Shown: positions 48,800-55,798 of the stretch, in pieces
Layout: the number at the start of each line of letters is the position of its first letter
Position numbering within the stretch: the first letter of the stretch is position 1
Assembly: GCA_035968315.1 (NCBI GenBank)
Contig: JAVYIN010000005.1
Coordinates: 868,001-932,000, forward strand
From: Nitrospira sp.
GTDB lineage: Bacteria; Nitrospirota; Nitrospiria; Nitrospirales; Nitrospiraceae
Direction of reading: 5' to 3'
DNA length: 64,000 nucleotides
Program-made: the position numbers and the translations under genes
Notes under the pieces: model-generated
Told to the model about the DNA's origin: nothing
Database searches by the model: none
What the model saw: the letters and a program-made list of their open reading frames with translations, nothing else

Positions 48800-49966
48800 G
48801 TGTCCACTACTTCACCCGGCTCCCCCACTTCCGCGACGATCGATCTCGCCGCCCTCGCGCATAATGTCACACAATTCAGCCGGTTCCTCTCGCCGGGATG
48901 CGCGATCATGGCCGTCGTCAAAGCCAATGCCTATGGCCATGGGGCCGTCGAGGTCTCCCGCGCACTGATTCGGCAGGGCATCGCCCGCCTGGCGGTCGTC
49001 TCCCTCGATGAAGGCATCGCGCTCCGGCAGGCCGGCATCACCGTGCCCATCGTGGTACTGGGTCCGCTCTTTCCACACCAAACAGACGACCTCTTCGCCC
49101 ACCGGCTGACGCCCGTAATCAGCGATAGAGCCATCCTCCCGGCGCTCGCCAAACGCGCCGCCGTGCTCCAGACTCCCTACCCTGTCCATCTGAAGGTTGA
49201 GACAGGCATGGGCCGCCTGGGATTGGCCGCCGATGACGCGATTGCACTTGTGACAACAGAGCCATGGCCGTCAGGCTTGCACCTCGAAGGATTGATGACG
49301 CATTTTGCGGATGCCGATGGCGCAACCAACGACCAGACCCAACAGCAGCTGACCCTCTTCACACGCGTGCTCACGACACTCGCGGCACAAGGCATCACGG
49401 CGCCACTCATCCATGCGGCCAATAGCGGCGGCGCCGTGCGTGTTCCTGGCGCGCAGTTCTCGCTGGTCCGGCCCGGCATCATGCTCTATGGCTATCACAC
49501 CCTGCCTCACACCGTACCAGCCCCTGATCTACAGCCGGTCCTGACCCTCAAAACCTGCATAGCGCAACTGCGCACGGTTCCACCAGGCGGCACCGTCAGC
49601 TACAACGCCACCTTCATTGCGAAGAGAGCCACGCGCGTCGCCGTCCTGCCGATCGGCTATGCCGACGGATACAGCCGCCGCCTCTCGAACCGCGGAGAAG
49701 TCCTCGTGCAAAGCCGGCGCGCCCGCGTAATCGGCACGGTCTGCATGGATATGATCATGGTCGATGTGACCGACATCCCCGGTGTGGCCGTGGGGGATGA
49801 GGTCGTGCTAATCGGCCGGCAAGGACAGGACGCCATCAGCGCGGCCGACGTGGCAGATTGGACAGGAACGATCCCCTACGAAGTGCTCTGTGCCATTGGC
49901 CCCCGCGTGCCTCGTGTCTATCAGCACGAGGCTGCGGCGCCATCCCGCTCGATTCGTATCGGTTAG
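48800..49966 (+). CDS. alr: Alanine racemase
   Basis: Alr makes D-alanine for peptidoglycan. The 388-residue protein has the PLP lysine in AVVKANAYGHG (Lys41) and a C-terminal domain with VGDEVVLIGRQG. The first usable start is a GTG at 48800. The gene follows frr by 29 bases and overlaps the convergent gene at 49963 by four bases. Confidence 0.95.
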   Translation: MSTTSPGSPTSATIDLAALAHNVTQFSRFLSPGCAIMAVVKANAYGHGAVEVSRALIRQGIARLAVVSLDEGIALRQAGITVPIVVLGPLFPHQTDDLFAHRLTPVISDRAILPALAKRAAVLQTPYPVHLKVETGMGRLGLAADDAIALVTTEPWPSGLHLEGLMTHFADADGATNDQTQQQLTLFTRVLTTLAAQGITAPLIHAANSGGAVRVPGAQFSLVRPGIMLYGYHTLPHTVPAPDLQPVLTLKTCIAQLRTVPPGGTVSYNATFIAKRATRVAVLPIGYADGYSRRLSNRGEVLVQSRRARVIGTVCMDMIMVDVTDIPGVAVGDEVVLIGRQGQDAISAADVADWTGTIPYEVLCAIGPRVPRVYQHEAAAPSRSIRIG

Positions 49967-51372
49967 AAATTCATTCGGATAGATACCCCGCCCGTGTGAT
50001 ACGTCGTCTGATAGCGCCCGTTGACCACAGACAAGGCACAGCCGCACGTCACCGTTCGCTGCTCGTAGAGCGAGGCCTGGTAAGAGAGATCCAGCGCGAT
50101 CGCTTTGGGCTTCACCGGCCCAAAGCCAATGTCACCACAGCGAATGCCAAAGATCGTCCCCCCTTCTTTGCACAACGCTCCAAACCCAACCGAGAGGATA
50201 TGCACATCAGCTGAGGGCAACGCTGGATCGAAGGAAGAATCCGGCACCTGCGTGGGGGAATTGGTATAGCCCGCCCGCAGCGCCAACTCCCACTCCGGCA
50301 GCGCCTCCACTTTGAGCCACCGGTACTCTGTCCCAACCATCATTGTATAGGTGCTGCGCCAATTCTGCGATTGAGGGATTGTCGTTCCGCTGGGAAGATG
50401 GATGTCCAGATCCCGAACCGACTTCCACCCGACATAATCCACATCCAATTCCAGCTTCCATTCGCGCTCTGCCGTTCTGGTCGGCCAAATCGCGACGGCA
50501 CCGGAGAAGATTTGCGGGAGCACAAAGGTCGTCGAGGCATCCGAGGTCTTGACCCCATTGGCCAATATGCCTCCATTCAGCGGCAAGCCGACCTGGCTCC
50601 GATACACCAGCCCGATATTGGCAATCGGTTTTCCCTCGGCATTCCGCAAGGCCGTATAGAGCAGGCTGACGTTGTATCCGACAGCGGTTCCCTTGCCATA
50701 GAGCTCCGCTTTCGATCCGGAAGAACCAAACGCAGATACTGCCCCGGTTGAAATAAACTGCTTCTCGAAATGCCCTTCCCCCAACAAACCGGAGAAGGTA
50801 TAAATATCCATTCCCAGCCCCAGCGAAAGATCCGGCAGCGCCTGATACGCCAGGGTGGGCTTGATGTCGATCAACGGCATGGCCGTGAAGGTGCTCTTGA
50901 AGCGAAGCGGGCCATTATCCGGATAGTGGCTCAGAGAGCCGAGCGGCGCCGTCATTCCGACGCCCACACTGAATCCGCTCAGAGCGCTCAGCCCAAGGTC
51001 GCCAAGATTTCCGACAATGAACAGATGGCCTGGCGGCGGCATTGCCCAGGCCCCATTGCGGTCGCCTGTGGAATTCACACCGGACGTGCTGGTGAAACTG
51101 GTCGTCCCGCCTGACAATAATCCACCGGCCATCACTTGCAGACCATGTAGTTGCGTCATCCCGGCGGGGTTGTAGTGCAGCGCCGACGGATCGTCCGCCT
51201 GGGCGGCAAAGGCGTTGCCTTGCCCGGATGCGGCGGTCCCCTGCCCTTGAATACGAGGAACCTGTGCCAGAAGATCAGAGGGAAAGAATGCCCCGTACAG
51301 CAAACTGACGATCAGAAACACACCGGCACAAATCGACCCTGCCGCCACCTGACGGAACCGAATATTGACCAC
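49963..51372 (-). CDS. FadL/OmpP1-type outer-membrane channel
   Basis: The 469-residue protein has a signal peptide ending in DLLAQ, then the FadL start pattern QGTAASGQGNAFAAQADDPSA with HYNPAGMTQL, and many alternating beta segments ending in RMNF. FadL family members move fatty acids or other hydrophobic compounds across the outer membrane. I chose the GTG at 51372 because AAGGAG lies upstream. It is 61 bases downstream of the histidine-kinase gene of the fatty-acid-oxygenase block, which makes a lipid substrate attractive but unproven. Confidence 0.85.
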   Translation of the reverse strand: MVNIRFRQVAAGSICAGVFLIVSLLYGAFFPSDLLAQVPRIQGQGTAASGQGNAFAAQADDPSALHYNPAGMTQLHGLQVMAGGLLSGGTTSFTSTSGVNSTGDRNGAWAMPPPGHLFIVGNLGDLGLSALSGFSVGVGMTAPLGSLSHYPDNGPLRFKSTFTAMPLIDIKPTLAYQALPDLSLGLGMDIYTFSGLLGEGHFEKQFISTGAVSAFGSSGSKAELYGKGTAVGYNVSLLYTALRNAEGKPIANIGLVYRSQVGLPLNGGILANGVKTSDASTTFVLPQIFSGAVAIWPTRTAEREWKLELDVDYVGWKSVRDLDIHLPSGTTIPQSQNWRSTYTMMVGTEYRWLKVEALPEWELALRAGYTNSPTQVPDSSFDPALPSADVHILSVGFGALCKEGGTIFGIRCGDIGFGPVKPKAIALDLSYQASLYEQRTVTCGCALSVVNGRYQTTYHTGGVSIRMNF

Positions 51373-51433
51373 GCCGCCACCGCTCCTTCTCTCCGGCATC
51401 CCTAGCAGCCAGAGGCTATGAAATGGCGGCATT

Positions 51434-54094
51434 CTACCCGGGTCGAAACCAATAGTCTATGAGACGCTGCACCTCTCCAGATTCAAACGGCTTGAGCAAC
51501 GTGGCTTGCGCTCCTAACCCCATGGCTCTCGCCGCGACTGCCTGAGAGTCGGCCGTACAGAGCAGCAGAATCGGAATCCGCTGGTTGCACAGCCTGATCT
51601 CTCGCACCAGCTCCACGCGATCGGCCAGCGCCGCATCCACTTCAAGCAGCACCCCGGCATAGGGTTCGGCTTGCAGCCTCTCCATCGCCATCTCCCTGTC
51701 CATGACCAGATGCGGATACAGGCCATTCGCCCGCAACCGATCCGCCAGCAATTGCTGGATGTCGGCATCCCCCTCGATCACCAATATCTGCCGCCCAGCC
51801 GACAGGCCGGAGGAGGCAGGAGGGTCCAACGTAGGCAATAACGGAACGGTAAATAAAACCTCTGCTCCGCCGTCCGGATGATTGCGCGCCATGACGGCCC
51901 CACCCTGCAACTCAACCAGGGTCTTCACAATCGACAACCCCAGGCCCAATCCCTTCGGACCGCTCCGCTGACCATGCTGGACGCGGAAAAAGGGGTCGAA
52001 GATTTTGTCTAAAAACTCAGATGGAACACCAGGCCCCGTGTCCCGCACCACAATACGGGCCGATCGTGGCGTTTCCGATTGCACACGCACGGCAATCTGG
52101 CCATCCTCGGGAGTAAATTTGATGCTGTTTTGCACGAGATTCACGACCACCTGAGTCAGCCGATCCCGATCCGCCCAGGCAATCATCGTAGCGGCCGGAT
52201 ACACCAGCTCGATCTTCTGCCGCTTGGCCTGCGCCAGCGGACGCAGTTGCTCGATCGCGTCCGCCAGGCAGGCCTCCAAATCCACCTCGGCCGGCAGCAC
52301 CTCCAGCCGGCCGGTTTCAATGCGTGTCCGGTCCAGCAAATCTTCAATCATGCGAATCAGACGATCGGAATTCTCCAGCATCCTGGAGAGATAGCGGAAC
52401 TGTTTGTCGTTCAACGGGCCCGTCAGCCCATCCAGCAAATTCTGGATAAACCCTTTAATCGACGTCAGCGGCGTCTTCAACTCGTGCGAGACATGGGACA
52501 AGAACTGCGACCGCAGCCGGTCGGCCTGTTCCAGCGCCGCCGTCCGCTCGCGCACCTTGACCTCCAGGCGCATGTTCCACTCCTCGATCTGCTGATAGGC
52601 CGCGGCATTGTCCAAGGCAATCGCCACTTGGTTCGCCAGCGTTGTCATCAGTTCAAGGTCATCGTGCGTCAAACTGTGTTCCTGCATCCGGTCTACCATC
52701 AGGGTCCCAAGTATTCGATCTTTGGCCTTGAGGGGAACCGCAATGAGCGCTTTGGTATTGATCATCTCGATCAGCTGCTGATTGATGGGATGGAGCCGGT
52801 CCCACACCTCTCGCACATCCCCGATCAACAGAGACTTTCCTTGCAACACGACCATTCCCTCCGGGCTCTCCGAATCGGTGAGCGAAATTTCTCGTGCCCG
52901 AACAAAGGCCTGGATTTCCGGCGACACCCCTAGCGCCCGCGCGTTGCCGATCACCTGCCGCACCGGGTCGTAAAACGAAATCATGGCGCGATCGTAGTTC
53001 AAATCGCGAATCAGCGTTTCCAATACCTGCTGCAGCAAGGCCTCCCGGTCGAGCGTCGAGCTGAACAGCAACCCGGACCGATGGAGCGCCGTCAGCTGGT
53101 TGACCTTCCGGCGCAGCTCCACGCGTGTCTGCTCCTGCTCAAGATAGGCTTCGCGCAATTCCTCATGGCGCGCCTCGACGAACGCGACTTGTTCCTGAAT
53201 CAAGGCCTCCCGCTTCCGTGTTTCGGATTGAATCCTCCGGCTGGTAATCATGCCGGCCACGAGCGTCGGCACCAGGGCCACCGCCAAGGCCTCCACCGCG
53301 CTGATCTCCGGATGCACGACGGACAGATAGGTAAACGCCGCCAGACCGGCCGTCGCCCCCCAGTAGGGCCAGACCGGCTGCGACTGCTCGGGCTTCCACC
53401 GCACGTCCCATTCGCAATAGGCATCGCCCCGCACGATGCAGGCACGATCGATCACCGTCGAGGGCGGCAGTCCATGCAAGCGCACCGGCACCATCGCAAT
53501 GCGCCCCTTGGAGGATTCGCAGGTCTGGGCAGCACAGGCCCGCCGATAGGGGCCGAATTGCTCGACCACTTTGTCAGAAAACTGGAGCCGCAACACGGCC
53601 GACCGGTCCGTCACCTCGACCACCGTGCATTCGAGCCCCCGCGCAAACTTCTGCGCAAAATAGGGATACATGCGGTGGATCTGCGAAAGGCGAAACGGAC
53701 GGCCCAGCGTCTGAATCAAGGGCGAGATATGTTTCTCTTTTCCCACATCATAATGAAACGTCGGACAGCCCGAGAGCTGGCGGCAGAACTCCCGCAGATA
53801 GGAACTGAACTCATACGAATAGCTATTCCAGACCGTCTTCAAGAATGCGGGCGTCACATGGTAGGCGGAATCGCGGATGCGCCCGTTCAACAGTCCGCAC
53901 AGCTCGTCGGCGACCGTCTCCGCCGCCGCCGCGCCGCGGCTCTTGCGCACGCACTCTTCGAGATATTCGACATTGTCGCGAATGATCATGCCGCCGAAGT
54001 CTTGAATCCGCTCGCCCCGTTCATCGACGCCGAACGGGCGATAGGCCATGAAAGGCCGTTCAAGGATGGTATGGTCGGGAGGCAACACGTCCAT
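51434..54094 (-). CDS. Hybrid histidine kinase with V4R-like input and GAF domain
   Basis: About 886 residues from the ATG at 54094. The frame is open back to a TTG at 54142, and neither start has a good ribosome site. In order there is a V4R-like ligand domain (to about 225, ending RACIVRGDAYCEWDVRW), two hydrophobic segments (about 230-275), a coiled coil, a GAF domain (about 345-495), and a HisKA domain with SHELKTPL (His537). A HATPase domain follows (NLVQNSIKF, DTGPGVP, GLGLGLSIV), then a C-terminal receiver. In the receiver the expected phospho-Asp position reads LLEVD, so it is probably Glu818 or shifted. It lies directly downstream of the lipoxygenase-like gene. Its response partner is not visible. 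Confidence 0.88.
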   Translation of the reverse strand: MDVLPPDHTILERPFMAYRPFGVDERGERIQDFGGMIIRDNVEYLEECVRKSRGAAAAETVADELCGLLNGRIRDSAYHVTPAFLKTVWNSYSYEFSSYLREFCRQLSGCPTFHYDVGKEKHISPLIQTLGRPFRLSQIHRMYPYFAQKFARGLECTVVEVTDRSAVLRLQFSDKVVEQFGPYRRACAAQTCESSKGRIAMVPVRLHGLPPSTVIDRACIVRGDAYCEWDVRWKPEQSQPVWPYWGATAGLAAFTYLSVVHPEISAVEALAVALVPTLVAGMITSRRIQSETRKREALIQEQVAFVEARHEELREAYLEQEQTRVELRRKVNQLTALHRSGLLFSSTLDREALLQQVLETLIRDLNYDRAMISFYDPVRQVIGNARALGVSPEIQAFVRAREISLTDSESPEGMVVLQGKSLLIGDVREVWDRLHPINQQLIEMINTKALIAVPLKAKDRILGTLMVDRMQEHSLTHDDLELMTTLANQVAIALDNAAAYQQIEEWNMRLEVKVRERTAALEQADRLRSQFLSHVSHELKTPLTSIKGFIQNLLDGLTGPLNDKQFRYLSRMLENSDRLIRMIEDLLDRTRIETGRLEVLPAEVDLEACLADAIEQLRPLAQAKRQKIELVYPAATMIAWADRDRLTQVVVNLVQNSIKFTPEDGQIAVRVQSETPRSARIVVRDTGPGVPSEFLDKIFDPFFRVQHGQRSGPKGLGLGLSIVKTLVELQGGAVMARNHPDGGAEVLFTVPLLPTLDPPASSGLSAGRQILVIEGDADIQQLLADRLRANGLYPHLVMDREMAMERLQAEPYAGVLLEVDAALADRVELVREIRLCNQRIPILLLCTADSQAVAARAMGLGAQATLLKPFESGEVQRLIDYWFRPG

Positions 54095-54181
54095 CGTCAC
54101 CGTCGCCCGGATCCCGGACGGGATATCGCACACATCACCCAAGCCGCGCCGCGCGCGCTGATGCGAATCCGCCCGCCGTGA

Positions 54182-55798
54182 TCACGCATTGATATTCACT
54201 TCAAGCATCCTGGGGTGCAGCTTCCAGAGGCCGGGCGGCTCCATATCCATCGTCTGCTGGAGCGCCTCCAATTCTGCGCGAAAGGTTCGAAAGGCCCCCT
54301 TCGCCAGTGCTGTCCGCTGGGGATTCGTGGGCTCCTCCAACGCCACGCCCGAATAGTCGGCCATCAAGGGAGCCCGCACCACTTGCAACAGATAGTTCGT
54401 ATTGACCATCCTTTGATAGACATCCAGCGGCTCCCGGCGGGAATCCCGATAGACGCGGATCGGATGCGGCGCCGTCCACATCTGGTAGTTCCAGAGCTGC
54501 GCGCCGACCGACTCGTGATAGGCCGTAACCAGAAAGATCATCCGGGCCAGCATATCCGCCAGCCCGGCCGCCGACAGCGGCCACAACCCGCCGATACCCG
54601 CATGCGGCAGCAACCGGTGCAGCCCCTCCACCCAGGCGCGCAAGGCCTCATCCGCCTGCACCTCGGCATCCTGGCTGTAATACAGCCCGACATACCGCTG
54701 CGCATGACGATGCATGACGCGAAAGAGCGTTTCGAGATTGGCCTGCGTCGGCAACTCAATGCCGCAATCGGCCAGCCCGCGCCGCATGGCATCCAGCCGC
54801 GGATTGCCCATCTCCAGGAGAAACTCCCTGGCGGACGACTCCAGCAGCGCGCACAGCCCTTCGTGGGTGACACTGTAGGTCTGCTCGAAATCTCCGCGCG
54901 GGACCAGTTGGGCCGCGTTCCCAAACCGGTTGCTCTGCTGCGTTCCGTAGAGATGCGGCCAGAGCAGGCGGCAGATGGGGTGATGCGGACGAAAGGCATT
55001 CCGCGTCGCCAGCGCCAGCGATTCGCCGGCCATCAAGTGCAGCCAGTTCCAATGGCGCACCAAGCCGGTATGCGTCGTCGCCGCGCACAGCGCGATCCGC
55101 TCCGCCAGCGGCCAGGCCGCATCGCCAGGCCGCGCCACCCCCAACTCCGTATGAATCTCGACTGCCCGAATCGTCCTGGCGCCAGGATCGCGCCGGAACC
55201 GTACCTGCGCCCAGGGCTGATAGAGCCCTTCATGGCAGACCACGGCGCGGGCCTTCAATTGCTGCAGGTTCCATTCATACACATCGTCGGTCACGCGCTG
55301 GAGATAGGCGGCATAGGGGCCGCGCACCGCGAGCAAACCGAGATCCGGCTTGCCGCAGAGCTCCGACGGGAGCACCGGAGGGTGCAGCACCAGCTCCCGT
55401 GACACACGCGCGTTTTTCGCCGCCGCCTTGGCCGCGCGGTCATGGCGTGAGCGATAGCCCTGAGCCAGCGCCGCATGCATGTCGGAGGCGATCATGGGGA
55501 GGCCGCGCTGCATGGGCGGGAAGATCCGGTACAGCACCCGCTGCGCGCCGAACATCAGCCGTTTTTTGAGATACTGCCCGTACGGGCGCTTTTCATCGGC
55601 GGGAATGGCACTCGCTACACACAACGAGGGAATCACCACGCCGGGAAACACCCGGCAAAAGGGCACCGGCACCAGCGGTTCAAACGCCCGTGGGACCGGC
55701 AGAATCGCGAGCGGCTGATTTTTTGTGAATTTCGTCCGCGCGATCCAGTTCCAGATCCCCCGGCGAATCCTCCAGCACAGCCGTCCCCAGATCCCCAT
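54182..55798 (-). CDS. Lipoxygenase-family protein
   Basis: This 538-residue protein carries the lipoxygenase iron-site pattern. HWNWLH holds two histidines four residues apart (His249, His254), followed by HHPICRLLWPHLYGT. A third histidine is in VTAYHESVG (His428). Lipoxygenases insert O2 into polyunsaturated fatty acids. The usual Asn four residues after the third His is Gly here, and the C-terminus ends NINA where the usual terminal iron-ligating Ile stands. It is shorter than known bacterial lipoxygenases. I chose the ATG at 55798 (AAAGGA upstream) over a GTG at 55816. It lies 78 bases after the alpha-dioxygenase-like gene. Confidence 0.82.
   Translation of the reverse strand: MGIWGRLCWRIRRGIWNWIARTKFTKNQPLAILPVPRAFEPLVPVPFCRVFPGVVIPSLCVASAIPADEKRPYGQYLKKRLMFGAQRVLYRIFPPMQRGLPMIASDMHAALAQGYRSRHDRAAKAAAKNARVSRELVLHPPVLPSELCGKPDLGLLAVRGPYAAYLQRVTDDVYEWNLQQLKARAVVCHEGLYQPWAQVRFRRDPGARTIRAVEIHTELGVARPGDAAWPLAERIALCAATTHTGLVRHWNWLHLMAGESLALATRNAFRPHHPICRLLWPHLYGTQQSNRFGNAAQLVPRGDFEQTYSVTHEGLCALLESSAREFLLEMGNPRLDAMRRGLADCGIELPTQANLETLFRVMHRHAQRYVGLYYSQDAEVQADEALRAWVEGLHRLLPHAGIGGLWPLSAAGLADMLARMIFLVTAYHESVGAQLWNYQMWTAPHPIRVYRDSRREPLDVYQRMVNTNYLLQVVRAPLMADYSGVALEEPTNPQRTALAKGAFRTFRAELEALQQTMDMEPPGLWKLHPRMLEVNINA

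Follow-up and report, generated by a model that had tools for sequence, protein, structure and literature searches.

A lipoxygenase-fold protein family with a remodelled metal site, encoded beside fatty-acid dioxygenase and sensor-kinase genes in Nitrospirota

We describe a family of lipoxygenase-like proteins, found in 22 Nitrospirota genomes, in which the metal site of the fold appears to have been rebuilt. According to our alignments, two of the five classical ligands are lost (His to Thr, Leu, Ile or Met, and Asn to Gly), the terminal Ile has become Ala, and the ligands that are clearly kept are H249 and H428. The member examined here, P0001, is encoded in a 64,000-nucleotide stretch of a Nitrospira sp. 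contig (JAVYIN010000005.1, assembly GCA_035968315.1), hereafter the window. Its gene sits between those of a fatty-acid oxygenase and a sensor kinase, and for this reason a pathway for sensing oxidised lipids is suggested. We tentatively propose, as an account that is plausible if short of probable, that this is a lipoxygenase-fold family with a rebuilt iron site that works in a module for fatty-acid oxidation and sensing.

Fold and metal-ligand positions of P0001

A preliminary description of this DNA, made from the sequence itself, had proposed a compact lipoxygenase, either non-classical or inactive, at the P0001 reading frame. The 538-aa frame is present, its strand is minus, and homologues begin at the same Met (Table 1). 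PF00305 is the one Pfam family that it matches (44.6 bits, against a cut-off of 23.6); the search of Pfam returned no further domain, such as an N-terminal PLAT domain, and that of NCBIfam returned no match. P0001 is also the sole PF00305 match in the 3.11 Mb host genome. An AlphaFold2 model was built from nine sequences (mean pLDDT 64, pTM 0.67). Lipoxygenases were on top in a Foldseek search with this model (E 5.5e-13), and VIA-align matched it to 5-lipoxygenase over 398 residues (Z 30.0, rmsd 2.6 Å), with the fold match spanning residues 34-538. Having both a PF00305 score above the curated cut-off and a lipoxygenase fold, P0001 belongs to the lipoxygenase superfamily. The different fold that the preliminary description had named as counter-evidence is ruled out by Foldseek and VIA-align, and its view of a compact, non-classical or inactive lipoxygenase is supported by the fold, by the lack of PLAT or other Pfam domains and by the altered ligands.

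Table 1. Coordinates of P0001, its ligand positions and the neighbouring genes in the window.
Feature	Position	Strand	Evidence
FadL/TodX-type outer-membrane transporter	49963..51432	minus	PF03349, 120.6 bits
Hybrid histidine kinase (N-terminal sensor, GAF, HisKA, HATPase, receiver)	51434..54142	minus	domain matches
Lipoxygenase-fold protein P0001, remodelled metal site	54182..55798	minus	538 aa; PF00305 and fold match
Ala538, terminal residue replacing the classical Ile	54185..54187	minus	N-A at 22/22 chain ends
Gly432, site of the classical Asn ligand (soybean Asn694)	54503..54505	minus	22/22 in-frame sequences
His428, classical third iron His (soybean His690)	54515..54517	minus	22/22 in-frame sequences
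His254, third motif His, not a classical ligand	55037..55039	minus	21/21; phmmer, hhalign
His249, classical second iron His (soybean His504)	55052..55054	minus	21/21
Thr244, site of the classical first iron His (soybean His499)	55067..55069	minus	T/L/I/M in 21/21 with the residue
His243, one residue ahead of the lost ligand, possible substitute ligand	55070..55072	minus	His 20/21, Asp 1/21
Alpha-dioxygenase-like haem enzyme, directly upstream of the P0001 gene	55877..57817	minus	PF03098, 356 bits

In PMC4415952 the lipoxygenase motif is given as His-(X)4-His-(X)4-His-(X)17-His-(X)8-His, with His499, His504, His690, Asn694 and Ile839 as the classical ligand set. The register of P0001 was taken from three methods: phmmer against solved lipoxygenases, MAFFT with three classical bacterial lipoxygenases (from Nostoc, Rhodococcus and Pantoea plasmids), and hhalign between two alignments. 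The MAFFT ligand columns hold 24 family segments together with the three classical sequences. All three methods concur that T244 stands at ligand 1, H249 at ligand 2 and H254 at the third motif His, and the common register puts H428 at the third iron His and G432 at the Asn ligand; the P0001 motif reads T244-x4-H249-x4-H254-x18-H273-x8-H282, and of the motif histidines only the first is missing. The third motif His corresponds to soybean His509, which is not a ligand.

The preliminary description had assigned His249, His254 and His428 to the iron site. These residues are all present, but the register was off by one motif step: H254 is the third motif His, the classical ligands left are H249 and H428, and the first is a Thr. 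An iron triad of H249, H254 and H428 is ruled out by the phmmer, MAFFT and hhalign alignments. The Gly reported at the Asn ligand position was confirmed as Gly432. The change at the metal site exceeds the earlier account, in which the loss of the first His, the most important change, was missed. As a whole, the description was partly confirmed in its observations and partly supported in its interpretation. The neighbouring genes, which carry the most weight for function, did not enter into it.

Across the family, position 244 is T in 17, L in two, I in one and M in one of the 21 sequences that bear the ligand helix; in the MAFFT columns ligand 1 is never His in these 21 and is His in all three classical bacterial lipoxygenases. 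The second and third His ligands (His504 and His690) are kept throughout. The changes at ligand 1 and at the Asn position are common to every family member having the residue, which puts them beyond chance. Position 429, immediately after H428, is Glu in 21 and Asp in one of the 22 in-frame sequences with the second cluster. The sole exception at position 243 has Asp there, a residue that also commonly binds metals. In some animal lipoxygenases the Asn694 ligand is replaced by His or Ser. The out-of-frame tail of the first L041 fragment was left out of the ligand counts, and the C-terminal columns leave out this fragment and L057, both of which are without that region. In the L041 assembly the lipoxygenase-like gene reads as two pieces in different frames (L041:256-1883). 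One of the three classical sequences, the Nostoc plasmid lipoxygenase (L060:5248-7089), likewise carries Gly in place of the Asn ligand, and its chain end lacks the classical Ile.

At the chain end, the replacement of the terminal Ile and the ending N-I-N-A were as described earlier. When the homologue ends were aligned, a check proposed at that stage, all 22 finished exactly in N-A, with no further letters in the 18 near-full sequences. A538 is in register with the classical terminal Ile by MAFFT, and by hhalign this register extends as far as the penultimate residue. The last ten residues of the model score below pLDDT 50, and VIA-align of this low-confidence end places A538 opposite a residue that lies a few positions short of the terminal Ile in solved lipoxygenases. 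The Ala538 carboxylate may reach the iron.

Among the nearest known counterparts are the bacterial and cyanobacterial mini-lipoxygenases of Cyanothece (CspLOX2, 5med), P. aeruginosa (LoxA, 4g32) and Enhygromyxa salina (8x8f). They share with the P0001 family a lipoxygenase fold without a recognised PLAT domain, the His-rich helix motif, the second and third His ligands and a ..xINx-type chain end. The family differs from them in having Thr, Leu, Ile or Met for the first His, Gly for Asn, Ala for the terminal Ile and Glu or Asp after H428, and identity between P0001 and these enzymes is about 16-18% in structural alignments.

Distribution and sequence constraint

The 22 genomes are the union of hits in 5 of 59 relatives, 14 of 395 genomes of the phylum and 20 of 175 genomes of the family; those that bear names are assemblies of Nitrospira and Nitrospiraceae, Nitrospira sp. 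UBC2 and LK70 among them. When 295 genomes of the phylum were searched for PF00305, 12 gave matches, and because all 12 also came up in the family search, no classical lipoxygenase was seen in this sample. No match was obtained when a genome-contig collection was scanned with a single protein as query. A two-peptide-pattern scan of 84,980 species, with patterns that would miss divergent members, found nine loci, all in Nitrospirota, and a plasmid collection yielded distant lipoxygenases only, in six records.

The family recurs and is not a one-off. It is under purifying selection, with dN/dS of about 0.12-0.31 in nine pairs, and a sequencing or annotation artefact is ruled out by these values and by recurrence in 22 genomes. 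Invariance was counted in 12 sequences of <90% identity, drawn from the 18 near-full sequences after removal of fragments. Of the 538 positions, 83 do not vary, among them H243, H249, H254, H428, G432, N537 and A538.

Dioxygenase, kinase and transporter genes at the locus

In the window, the dioxygenase gene, the lipoxygenase-like gene, the hybrid kinase gene and the gene for a FadL-type porin follow one another in this order on one strand, tightly packed. The best solved relatives of the dioxygenase are 4kvj (E 6e-105) and 4hhr (E 1.1e-102). It retains the motifs VHDW and VYRLH, in which we take the distal His, the catalytic Tyr and the proximal His to lie; the deposit 4kvl has Phe in place of the Tyr of the VYRxH motif. 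With PF03098 and these three residue motifs the upstream protein qualifies as an alpha-dioxygenase, and by sequence and motifs it belongs with the plant and cyanobacterial enzymes (4kvj, 4hhr; Calothrix PCC 6303 homologue, 49%). The product of this enzyme family is, we assume, 2-hydroperoxy fatty acids. Unlike the window, three alpha-dioxygenase plasmid loci, of Calothrix, Rhizobium and Streptomyces, have no lipoxygenase or histidine kinase annotated nearby.

A dioxygenase gene is adjacent to or fused with the lipoxygenase-like gene in 13 of the 22 genomes, the window included. Five genomes (G355, G137, G199, G443 and G449) have none beside it, the first three of them with a distinct dioxygenase homologue in another place (E about 1e-22), and at four loci (G035, G397, G462 and G455) a contig edge keeps the dioxygenase out of view. 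Of the 175 family genomes, 14 have an orthologue of the dioxygenase in the window (E <= 1e-60), and 12 of these also have the lipoxygenase-like gene; the other two are G014, in which the dioxygenase is truncated, and G384, in which a contig edge intervenes. The dioxygenase gene of G257 is interrupted by a stop.

Two loci encode both proteins as a single-frame fusion, L040:8610-13835 (minus strand, 1753 aa stop to stop) and L054:5634-10433 (plus strand, 1600 aa stop to stop), each laid out as dioxygenase, about ten hydrophobic segments and then the lipoxygenase-like domain. Comparable two-enzyme oxylipin fusions include the catalase-lipoxygenase of Acaryochloris (PMC11719350) and fungal dioxygenase-P450 proteins, in which, as in L040 and L054, one chain unites a haem enzyme with another enzyme of oxylipin metabolism. 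The present fusions differ in that the partner is an alpha-dioxygenase, the lipoxygenase domain is remodelled and the linker is long, with many hydrophobic segments.

Directly downstream of the lipoxygenase-like gene, at 4-226 bp, lies the gene for a GAF hybrid kinase in 20 of the 21 other genomes. The exception is L040, in which the kinase is 1.6 kb off, separated by an ORF of 511 aa that has two CxxCH motifs and that we read as cytochrome c-like from its sequence. A gene of this kind stands beside the dioxygenase gene in two phyla, as the CxxCH gene L040:7022-8557 in Nitrospirota and as an annotated cytochrome c, L077:6817-8475, in Rhizobium. A FadL gene follows the kinase in six other loci having the lipoxygenase-like gene.

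A locus bounded by an alanine racemase gene and by thiamine-binding/sirohaem genes could be compared across genomes. L074 and L075 have kinase and FadL genes there and neither oxygenase, L037 and L038 have the lipoxygenase-like gene in addition, the window has all four genes, and L072 (G014) keeps the truncated dioxygenase but has none of the other three genes. Given these gene sets, the oxygenase genes seem to have been added to a pair made up of kinase and FadL. Their staged occurrence supports one shared lipid theme, while the kinase can exist without the oxygenases. The truncated dioxygenase (L072:6484-8247), from a close relative of the host and 87% identical to that of the window, abuts the racemase gene.

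The sensor domain of the kinase is widespread in the family (137 of 175 genomes), also where no lipoxygenase occurs, and L074 and L075 lack the oxygenases, so linkage to the kinase is no proof of joint function; a kinase dedicated solely to the lipoxygenase-like protein is ruled out on the same grounds. With a model of the sensor (pLDDT 61), the top Foldseek rows were H-NOX proteins, with TRAPPC3-palmitate and PoxR/MopR lower, all at E >= 1.1e-3, and VIA-align gave mixed folds with a best Z of 7.7; a sensor of H-NOX/V4R/Bet3 type is a lead only. Single long frames with tandem sensor-like domains were also observed, three domains in L055:1599-4394 and four in G318 (contig C20:46515-49892).

Possible functions of the remodelled protein

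In the mechanism that we tentatively favour, the dioxygenase would produce 2-hydroperoxy fatty acids, and H249, H428, the free carboxylate of Ala538 and probably the shifted H243 would hold a metal in a site of two or three His and a carboxylate. The lipoxygenase-like protein would not carry out classical lipoxygenation of polyunsaturated fatty acids; it may instead handle fatty acids or the 2-hydroperoxides of the dioxygenase, and the adjoining histidine kinase might read the product or the loaded protein. Retention of a metal is favoured because H249, H428, the shifted His/Asp at 243 and the exact chain end are strictly held. Several observations run against it: invariance extends to the non-ligand H254 and to 70-odd other residues, two of five ligands are gone, the ligand helix of the model is interrupted at residue 245, and the low-confidence chain end of the model stops some residues before the point where classical chains terminate. 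Against a shared module stand the five genomes that have the lipoxygenase-like protein without an adjacent dioxygenase. A bolder version, which we regard as doubtful, is that the fold has been reduced to a 2-His-1-carboxylate centre (H249, H428 and Ala538, with H243 or Asp as an optional fourth ligand) that turns alpha-dioxygenase hydroperoxides into a signal for the hybrid kinase, making up a complete operon for oxylipin synthesis, uptake and sensing in bacteria of a nitrifying lineage. In P. aeruginosa, a role in sensing the environment has been proposed for the oxygenation of fatty acids by the diol synthase system (PMC5155153); its enzymes differ from those of the window, and the text of that paper is without the words FadL, transport and sensor.

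Nearly as likely as the metal-retaining reading is a non-catalytic lipid binder: a pseudo-lipoxygenase with a dead metal site, whose fold would bind a fatty acid or hydroperoxide and present the ligand to the kinase or scaffold the dioxygenase at the membrane, the remaining His and the chain end serving core packing. The loss of ligand 1 and of the Asn ligand in all sequences with the residue speaks for it, as does the drift of position 244 among T, L, I and M, in the manner of a residue that is no ligand. Of the neighbouring genes, that of the kinase is the most closely linked, and some genomes have the lipoxygenase-like protein, kinase and FadL without an adjacent dioxygenase. However, packing offers no ready explanation for the strict constraint on H249, H428 and the exact chain end, and H243 changes to Asp only.

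We consider it improbable that P0001 is an ordinary lipoxygenase that tolerates its substitutions and has kept the ability to oxygenate polyunsaturated fatty acids. Known enzymes may accommodate Gly for Asn and an altered terminus, each of them a single change; for the soybean enzyme an N694G structure has been deposited (1y4k), the Nostoc plasmid enzyme has the same Gly, and P0001 exceeds the PF00305 cut-off. The genome also has four PF00487 matches, so that desaturated substrates are possible, and we dropped the argument that the host is without unsaturated substrates. However, the first His ligand is missing too, unlike in all three classical bacterial sequences. In PMC6612559, true lipoxygenases are tested by a His+His cluster and a His+Asn cluster; classical activity in the P0001 family seems unlikely on sequence grounds because this two-cluster criterion fails in both clusters.

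Least probable is a decaying gene hitch-hiking in a dioxygenase-kinase operon, to which the split frame in L041, the stop in the G257 dioxygenase and the truncated dioxygenase of G014 (with no lipoxygenase-like, kinase or FadL gene beside it) might point, but which is already weakened by the dN/dS values and is opposed by the 18 near-full sequences that run stop-free to the same chain end and by the intact domain in both fusions.

In the open-licence literature we found no paper on a remodelled lipoxygenase-like family of Nitrospira and no lipoxygenase or oxylipin study for Nitrospira relatives, and the oxidised-lipid sensing pathway around the lipoxygenase-like gene seems not to have been described by anyone. 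To our knowledge, few natural relatives of lipoxygenases with lost His ligands are known, so the family amounts to a test, set up by nature, of which ligands the fold requires. Should the metal be retained, the family would be a bridge between lipoxygenases and 2-His-1-carboxylate enzymes; if it is lost, the lipoxygenase fold would have been reused as a lipid binder or sensor. Under either reading, our findings suggest a signalling role for oxidised fatty acids in relatives of Nitrospira.
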